This document shows positions 45,661 to 48,843 of a stretch of DNA of 64,000 nt, one piece after another (position 1 is the stretch's first letter; the number at the start of each line of letters is the position of its first letter). Source of the stretch: Nitrospira sp. ND1 (GTDB lineage Bacteria > Nitrospirota > Nitrospiria > Nitrospirales > Nitrospiraceae). The notes beneath the pieces were generated by a model. That model searched no databases and was not told where the DNA came from. It saw only the letters and a list, made by a program, of their open reading frames with translations. The DNA is taken from contig NZ_FWEX01000006.1 in NCBI RefSeq assembly GCF_900170025.1, positions 1,086,795-1,150,794 on the forward strand, written 5' to 3'. Both the position numbers and the translations under genes were made by a program.

Positions 45661-46026
45661 TCACAATTTTTTCTTGAACTGCGGGGGTGCGTGAGGCGGG
45701 AGTGACGGACGAGGGCCAGGCGTGCCGGATGGAGGACGCGCTGCGCCGAAGCCGCCATACCCACCATACCAGCCGAACCCGAGCGGCCCGTAGGGACCGC
45801 CATAATACCCGAGCGGATGTCCCCAATAGCCGGGACCATATCCAATCCCATACCCGGGCCCGTATCCGGGACCGGGCCAGTAGGAATAGGACTGACTGCC
45901 GGCATAGCCGGGATCCACCAGAAAATCACTCTGTGCCAACCGCTCCGCCTGATGGACTGATTGCGCACAACCCGCCAGGAGCAGGATGACGCAGAGCACG
46001 ATGAACCCGGGCACGAATCGAGTCAT
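45661..46026 (-). CDS. Gly/Tyr/Pro-rich lipoprotein
   Basis: A 121-residue protein with a lipoprotein signal (FIVLCVILLLAGC). The mature part is low complexity and aromatic (YSYWPGPGYGPG, YYGGPYGPLGFG) and ends PPHAPPQFKKKL. Its end and layout match the neighbour at 46091, so the two are paralogues. GAGGA precedes the ATG at 46026. An outer-membrane or surface role is inferred from the signal only. Confidence 0.7.
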   Translation of the reverse strand: MTRFVPGFIVLCVILLLAGCAQSVHQAERLAQSDFLVDPGYAGSQSYSYWPGPGYGPGYGIGYGPGYWGHPLGYYGGPYGPLGFGWYGGYGGFGAARPPSGTPGPRPSLPPHAPPQFKKKL

Positions 46027-46090
46027 GGCTGCGTCCTCAACGACTGACCACGTCACGCTCCTTCATTCAGACACAGACGCTCGCATCGAA

Positions 46091-46393
46091 TCAATATTTC
46101 TTCTGAAATTGCGGCGGCGCATTGGCCGGTGGTGTCGGACGTGGTGCGGGTGCGTTCGACTGCTGACTGCCGATGCCATAGCCGCCCCCATACCACCCAT
46201 AGCCGGAACCATAGTAGCCGAACGGATTCCACCAGAATCCAGGGCCGTTCCAATAGGACGGTGATTCGGGATAACCGGGATTCATGTGGGCGCCCACAGA
46301 TCCAAGACGCTCTCCCTGGTGAAACGATTGCGCACAGGCCGTCAGGAGCAACAGAGCGCTTGCGACGAAGAGGGAACCGATCGATCGCGTCAT
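46091..46393 (-). CDS. Gly/Tyr-rich lipoprotein, paralogue of the neighbour
   Basis: A 100-residue protein with a lipobox (ASALLLLTACAQS), similar AQSFHQGERL after it, an aromatic Gly/Tyr stretch (NPFGYYGSGYGWYGGGYG), and an end PPANAPPQFQKKY nearly the same as its paralogue's. AGGAGGTG lies before the ATG. It is 11 bases after the barrel gene and may be cotranscribed with it. Confidence 0.75.
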   Translation of the reverse strand: MTRSIGSLFVASALLLLTACAQSFHQGERLGSVGAHMNPGYPESPSYWNGPGFWWNPFGYYGSGYGWYGGGYGIGSQQSNAPAPRPTPPANAPPQFQKKY

Positions 46394-47510: not shown

Positions 47511-48716
47511 TCAATCGAGTGTGAACCGCTTCGTCTCTTCAAGGTGCTTGCTCAGGTAGGGCATGAAGGGCGTGCCGCCGGTGCCGACAGCGGTGGGATT
47601 GCTGGCGTGCGACTGGTGTTGCCGGAAGATATACCGCTCGGCGTACCCGATGTGAATGTCTCGAAACTGCGCGAGTAAATCCACACAAGTACAAAAGGCT
47701 TTCCATAGATCAGGATGCGTCGCTTTGCGATCGCGCGCATAGCCGTAGAGCAACGGGCGCTGCTGCTCATCCGTGCGTGCTTCGAGCGCCGCCAGAAACG
47801 TCCGGTGGCGCGGAGGCATATAGTCACGCATCTCCACGAGGTACTGCGTCAGCGGGTCGTCCGCATGAGGGATTCCAAGGCCGGCATCCAGCGCCGGCAC
47901 AATCGAGCTTTGCGAGCCGGTTTCCCCGCGGAATTGTTGAGGTCGCTGCGCGTAGTCCGCGACCCCTTCGTAGACGACTCCCTGAGGCAATGACGGGCTG
48001 TTCTTCCAGCCATGGATATAGGGCCGCACGCGGCTGTAATAGATGTACGGATCACAACGCTCGGGCATGCGAAGCAGCGTCTCCCGCATCGCTTCCTGCG
48101 CGGCTGCCAGCGCATGGAGTCCTTGCAACACATCGTCGGGCTTATTGGCTCGCGCAGCATTGTGAGCTTGAACCAATCCCACCAACCCCGGTCCTGCCTT
48201 CGCCTCAATGTCGATATGGATCAGGACAAACCATTCTTCATCCAGGCCCCCAAGAAAGTTCTGCAGGAGCACCACGTTGCCCAACTCAATGGGCTTCTGC
48301 GGATCGAGGCGCCGCCAGTTGTGCAGGGCATAGGAAGCATAGGACAGCACGGGCGGCCGGCCGAGCTGTTGCGCAACGGCACACCACGGCAGGGCCAGAC
48401 TGGCCGGGATGAGTGACGCGGGGTGGTCGGGATCTTCCCAGACAAATGCGTGACCGACAAAGGAGAGGGTGCGCATCGCGCAACGAAAGACATCGAGGCC
48501 CCAGTCATCTGCCACCGGCCCCATGACCTCTCGATGGTCATTGACGAAAGATCGAAACTGTCGCGCCGTCAGGAATTTTGGAAGCTCCGCGCCGATCTGA
48601 TTCAAGATCGGCTCATCCGGGAGCTGCGCCAACGGATCTGTCGCCGGAAGGAACCCGCGGTCAGGTGAAAGATCGAACTGCGCAAGTGAGAGAAGCTGAT
48701 GGCTAGATGTCGTCAT
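47511..48716 (-). CDS. Indoleamine 2,3-dioxygenase-like haem enzyme
   Basis: A 401-residue IDO-family protein. Conserved features: RPPVLSYASYALHNWR, FRGETGSQSSIVPALD (ring-binding region), YMPPRHRTFLAAL, and the proximal haem His355 in FRDIHIGYAERYIF, followed by GTGGTPFMPYLSKHLEET. IDO opens the indole ring of tryptophan to N-formylkynurenine using O2. Length equals that of the animal and fungal enzymes. No kynureninase or formamidase gene is nearby. GGAAG lies before the ATG at 48716. Substrate is inferred from family. Confidence 0.85.
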   Translation of the reverse strand: MTTSSHQLLSLAQFDLSPDRGFLPATDPLAQLPDEPILNQIGAELPKFLTARQFRSFVNDHREVMGPVADDWGLDVFRCAMRTLSFVGHAFVWEDPDHPASLIPASLALPWCAVAQQLGRPPVLSYASYALHNWRRLDPQKPIELGNVVLLQNFLGGLDEEWFVLIHIDIEAKAGPGLVGLVQAHNAARANKPDDVLQGLHALAAAQEAMRETLLRMPERCDPYIYYSRVRPYIHGWKNSPSLPQGVVYEGVADYAQRPQQFRGETGSQSSIVPALDAGLGIPHADDPLTQYLVEMRDYMPPRHRTFLAALEARTDEQQRPLLYGYARDRKATHPDLWKAFCTCVDLLAQFRDIHIGYAERYIFRQHQSHASNPTAVGTGGTPFMPYLSKHLEETKRFTLD

Positions 48717-48843
48717 GGTCGCTTCCACGGGAGACGCACACAATTCACTCTACCACAGTGCAACGATTTCCAGCGCAGCACCGCACTGCGCCCGGCTCGA
48801 GTGAATCCACCGGGGGACTGAAAGGCAGTTCTTGACAGGAGCT

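Follow-up and report, generated by a model that had tools for sequence, protein, structure and literature searches.

The window, a 64,000-nucleotide stretch of the Nitrospira sp. ND1 genome (4.45 Mb, 6 contigs), encodes a bacterial indoleamine 2,3-dioxygenase (IDO), a relative of the human tryptophan-cutting enzyme whose haem binding and activity are predicted from its sequence and modelled structure. The gene adds a member to a known family and sits in a conserved, puzzling orphan setting. Our best reading, to which we assign a probability of roughly 0.55, is that the gene encodes a working haem dioxygenase that would turn L-tryptophan, or an indole resembling it, into N-formylkynurenine without serving the kynureninase route; haem loading, substrate, product and cellular role are all things that we infer. 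A working IDO is favoured because of its family, fold, tryptophan-anchoring residues, purifying selection, genus-wide presence and descent within one clade. A role outside the kynureninase route is favoured because the genus has no recognised kynureninase or tryptophan 2,3-dioxygenase (TDO), NadA is present, IDO occurs independently of the other two enzymes in the order, and no operon partner is constant. In soils, waters and sewage plants, Nitrospira species count among the chief nitrite oxidisers. Most genomes in the family to which the window belongs retain IDO while lacking a recognised kynureninase for its product. If N-formylkynurenine is made, these autotrophs may release or use an overlooked tryptophan-derived metabolite; if the function is another one, the conserved pocket loop offers an easy way of testing how specificity evolved among IDOs.

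An earlier sequence-only reading of this DNA had called the gene an IDO with the main family motifs and the haem-binding histidine, and both parts of that call were confirmed (Table 1). The protein matches the Pfam profile PF01231 with 287 bits against a cut-off of 26, over 387 residues and profile positions 2–411 of 412, and a phmmer search of solved structures returned human IDO2 and IDO1 as the sole matches. No NCBIfam model matched the protein, and the TDO profile PF03301 matched nothing in the own genome, the IDO gene included, while two control genomes were positive. A GGAAG motif lies 5 nt upstream of the ATG start, and an alternative TTG start at 48743 would lengthen the protein by 9 aa. 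An AlphaFold model built from 24 aligned IDO proteins (that of the window and those of related loci) had a mean pLDDT of 82.9, and its best matches among known structures were all IDO2 or IDO1 (Z 45–48). The closest was IDO2 (Z 47.6, rmsd 1.9 over 379 residues); IDO1 reached Z 45.9. Confidence was low at the N-terminus and in two further stretches: residues 266–268, overlapping the pocket loop, and residues 368–381, overlapping the flexible loop that runs up to GTGGT.

Table 1. Coding sequence and predicted active-site codons of the window IDO (window positions)
Feature	Position	Strand	Observations
IDO coding sequence, 401 aa	47511..48716	-	ATG start at 48716; PF01231 E-value 2.4e-85; match to the IDO1/IDO2 fold; omega 0.06-0.11
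His167 codon, distal haem pocket	48216..48218	-	Invariant in 92/92 Nitrospirales rows; position of Ser167 in human IDO1 and His76 in human TDO (PMC5758539)
Arg231 codon, predicted carboxylate binder	48024..48026	-	Invariant; role from PMC5758539
Glu265-Thr266-Gly267 codons, pocket loop	47916..47924	-	Position of Gly262-Ser263-Ala264 in human IDO1; E-T-G in 92/92 Nitrospirales rows
His355 codon, predicted proximal haem ligand	47652..47654	-	Aligned and conserved; position of His346 in human IDO1
GTGGT loop codons, residues 378-382	47571..47585	-	Aligned and conserved; Thr379 at the position of Thr379 in human IDO1 and Thr342 in human TDO (PMC5758539)

The predicted active site is close to uniform among the Nitrospirales proteins aligned. 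In human IDO1 numbering, all 92 aligned Nitrospirales rows have Tyr126, Tyr129, Phe163, His167, Tyr226, Arg231, Ile234, Glu262, Thr263, Gly264, Gln266 and Asp274; His346 is found in 91 rows and Thr379 in 89, the remainder being gaps. In human TDO the counterparts of Ser167, Arg231 and Thr379 of human IDO1 are His76, Arg144 and Thr342, which anchor, in this order, the indole NH, the carboxylate and the ammonium group of tryptophan (PMC5758539). As the equivalents of these three anchors are conserved, the window protein would offer all three TDO-type contacts within an IDO fold. The distal histidine is not special to Nitrospira, since haloarchaeal and alphaproteobacterial IDOs have it too. With this pocket, L-tryptophan or a closely related indole alpha-amino acid would be the most likely ligand of a haem-b IDO: Arg231 would bind the carboxylate, Thr379 in the GTGGT loop would contact the amino group and His167 the indole NH, and O2 would be inserted across the C2–C3 bond to give an N-formylkynurenine-type product.

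The pocket loop is where the IDO rows divide. An E/Q-T-G loop is found in those of Nitrospirales, Armatimonadota, Bacteroidia, Aquisalimonas, Sphingobium and Methylocystis, and no kynU neighbour was seen for any of them, whereas all seven haloarchaeal rows, which are kynU-linked, have A/G-S-G. Three hosts of the E/Q-T-G loop (one Fimbriimonadia and two Bacteroidia) encode a kynureninase elsewhere in the genome, so the loop tracks gene linkage and not the presence of kynureninase. The contrast may also mirror ancestry, the kynU-linked rows being haloarchaeal without exception. The invariant E-T-G loop and the Tyr129 and Tyr226 of the orphan group, set against the small-serine loop of the kynU-linked IDOs, lend some weight to an alternative that we regard as unlikely but worth keeping in view: the Glu265-Thr266 loop and the tyrosine-rich pocket would select an indole other than free L-tryptophan, or the protein would catalyse different haem chemistry, for instance mono- or peroxygenation of indole. 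Human IDO1 also acts as a monooxygenase on tryptophan and its analogues (PMC12921851), work on indole peroxygenation is cited in the same paper, and two IDOs from outside the mammalian and fungal branch, those of Erythrobacter litoralis and Neptuniibacter caesariensis, are reported to be very slow with tryptophan (PMC4217691). However, the residues that contact the amino-acid moiety of tryptophan, Arg231 and Thr379, are conserved, and no neighbouring gene suggests a different substrate. The slow turnover by these two proteobacterial enzymes is also a caution for our best reading, and the invariant Glu265, foreign to human and kynU-linked IDOs, counts against it. On a broader scale, Nitrospira-type IDOs, with their distal histidine and invariant Glu-Thr-Gly loop, could conceivably make up an enzyme group of their own, found in nitrifiers and other bacteria, with a substrate or product unlike that of the kynurenine pathway, a proposal that we put forward only tentatively.

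The sequence-only reading had noted that no kynurenine genes lie nearby, and indeed genes for TDO, kynureninase and 3-hydroxyanthranilate 3,4-dioxygenase (3-HAO) were not seen near the window IDO. The same picture emerged at genome scale. Kynureninase (kynU) had no match in the own genome, not even a weak one, or in the genomes of N. defluvii and N. moscoviensis, and same-genus genomes gave none but one 29-bit fragment; controls were positive. TDO was likewise absent from the own genome and from every genus genome searched, those of a larger draw from the order included. A search for 3-HAO gave no match, but its controls gave none either. The single formamidase candidate found in the own genome was a PF04199 cyclase (L124:8787-9599); of 25 same-genus genomes searched for this family, 22 had a match. 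Its assignment as KynB is weakened by a signal-peptide-like start and a score of 87.9 bits against the TIGR03035 arylformamidase cut-off of 223. NadA scored above its cut-off, so NAD is most likely made from aspartate. The proposed product would bypass kynureninase and would not be needed for NAD; it might be released, used as such or processed by some other enzyme. Among the titles and abstract openings surveyed, which covered few subscription journals, no paper on IDO in Nitrospira was recognised.

We then compared the occurrence of the three enzymes across 216 genomes of the order. TDO was found in 13 genomes, and these 13, with no others, also carry a KynU-like gene (Fisher p 4e-21), and the two genes were adjacent in all seven genomes compared by coordinates (G123, G135, G199, G248, G288, G445 and G450). 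The KynU-like proteins score below the NCBI cut-off, and their role is assigned because of this linkage to TDO; the TDO of G123 exceeds the equivalog cut-off, and those of G248 and G199 are family matches that fall short of it. In statistical terms IDO varies independently of TDO and the KynU-like gene: it occurs in 7 of the 13 TDO-KynU genomes and in 113 of the 203 others (Fisher p = 1; these tests treat genomes without regard to relatedness). Published work holds that IDO and TDO exclude each other in bacteria (PMC4191572), and the first 41 genomes hinted at the same, but the full set of 216 overturned it. Seven genomes carry IDO alongside TDO-KynU (G248, G199, G288, G432, G445, G450 and G240), contradicting mutual exclusion. 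In G248, a single contig, the IDO and TDO-KynU loci (L155, L160) lie far apart, and contamination is unlikely there.

The gene neighbourhood gives IDO no constant partner. In the window, pth, rplY and prs lie to one side of it and a gene for an outer-membrane barrel to the other. Within the lineage of the window, IDO follows pth, with two opposite-strand genes between them in close relatives; over much of lineage II, metK-ahcY precedes it at a distance of about 190–1,200 nt or more, and other genomes have other neighbours. Both pth and metK-ahcY were dropped as operon partners, being separated, distant or changing. Two adjacent small ORFs in the window (45661-46056 and 46091-46393) encode lipoprotein-like, Tyr/Gly/Pro-rich proteins (containing LLLAGCAQS and LLLTACAQS) with no Pfam match and look like a tandem duplication. 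Elsewhere in the window are a subunit of a 2-oxoacid:ferredoxin oxidoreductase and, at 11685-33225, a series of genes for large sensor histidine kinases and response regulators (PF00512, PF02518, PF00072), several of them encoding PAS and GAF domains. Just upstream of IDO, several Armatimonadota (chiefly Fimbriimonadales) encode a small, secreted-looking protein of about 126–160 aa (L098:7438-7920, L106:5874-6254, L108:7544-7942 and L110:2871-3251).

One family of the order, f2, has a different arrangement, in which IDO follows MeaB at the end of an acyl-CoA catabolic cluster (L088:80-9197, L152, L153 and L159). In NPIRA02 the cluster encodes methylmalonyl-CoA mutase, a carboxyltransferase, enoyl-CoA hydratase and HMG-CoA lyase, and a gene for a secreted-looking 420-aa protein with no Pfam match stands between MeaB and IDO; in another genome, G410, the gap between MeaB and IDO is about 17 nt. 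These neighbours hint at catabolism in f2 and count against our best reading. They fit an ordinary catabolic role, in which IDO feeds the kynurenine route and the later enzymes are too divergent for detection, as do the PF04199 cyclases of the genus and the haloarchaeal plasmids, where IDO adjoins kynU and mostly also an alpha/beta hydrolase and trpB (L138, L139, L140 and L149). Still, we think such a role quite improbable for the window gene: its genome lacks a kynureninase match even at weak scores, the order-mates that do have KynU pair it with TDO, and the own cyclase combines a signal-peptide-like start with a low arylformamidase score.

The surmise that the genome is that of a chemolithotroph proved right, its nearest named relative being Candidatus Nitrospira defluvii (about 91% identity for IDO, 95–99% for most housekeeping neighbours, conserved gene order). 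Across the phylum, 87 of the 395 genomes gave an IDO match above the cut-off. In the order IDO was found in 120 of the 216 genomes, among them all 27 of the same genus, most of the window's family and parts of two other families, f2 and f3. In the tree the Nitrospirales rows form one clade with support 100/100; nearest to it are Armatimonadota, two Bacteroidia and Aquisalimonas (enclosing branch 85/83). Families f1, f2 and f3 are poorly separated from one another at the deeper branches, and the outgroup rooting is unsure because the human branches are long. The simplest reading of the tree is vertical descent since at least the ancestor of the order, with repeated losses within it; an older transfer, before the radiation of the order, is possible. 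A phage origin or a recent mobile one was rejected, as phage records gave no match and plasmid matches stayed below 45% identity. Of the two explanations that the sequence-only reading had offered, acquisition by transfer therefore finds no support for the window genome, while a role outside tryptophan breakdown is favoured by the lack of kynureninase and TDO in the genus and the independence of IDO across the order. It had also named two findings that would speak against it, of which vertical inheritance was found and a complete kynurenine pathway was not.

Two further alternatives fare worse than those above. That IDO is a nitrite-, NO- or oxygen-reactive haem protein, its dioxygenase fold reused in nitrite oxidisers, seems very improbable to us: the substrate-anchoring residues are kept, and the same IDO group occurs in Armatimonadota, Bacteroidia, Aquisalimonas and Methylocystis, which to our knowledge are not nitrite oxidisers. 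The sole point in its favour in our data is the nitrite-oxidising host of the clade, alongside a report of human IDO1 as a nitrite reductase (Lim et al. 2019, as cited in PMC9246256). Broken or partial copies in lineage II (G036, G115, G043, G272, G324 and G070), some of which may be assembly faults of metagenome-assembled genomes, would fit a low-activity relic on its way to loss, but this has little likelihood for the window gene, given that no same-genus genome is without an IDO match and that IDO in the window's lineage is under purifying selection similar to that on its neighbours (omega 0.06–0.11; flanking genes 0.02–0.18).

Our best reading, a working dioxygenase outside the kynureninase route, can be set beside several known systems. 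The window protein resembles the bacterial IDOs of Yuasa et al. 2011 (Gemmatimonas and Streptomyces; Erythrobacter and Neptuniibacter) in being a bacterial IDO itself. With human IDO2 and IDO1 it shares, besides the fold, 27–34% identity, the proximal histidine, Arg231, the GTGGT loop, Tyr126 (as in IDO1) and Phe163; it differs in Tyr129, Tyr226 and Ile234, in His167, where IDO1 has Ser and IDO2 has Thr, and in the Glu-Thr-Gly loop, which is Gly-Ser-Ala in the human enzyme. The IDO1 chain used in this residue alignment was the S167H mutant. TDO has equivalents of its distal histidine, carboxylate-binding arginine and loop threonine, but belongs to another family, and in Nitrospirales TDO adjoins a KynU-like gene whereas IDO does not. 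The IDOs of haloarchaeal plasmids (Haladaptatus, Natronosalvus and Natronococcus) are alike in the distal histidine, Arg231 and Thr379, at 34–35% identity; they differ from the window protein in their kynurenine gene cluster, their A/G-S-G pocket loop and the Gly or Ala at residue 227.
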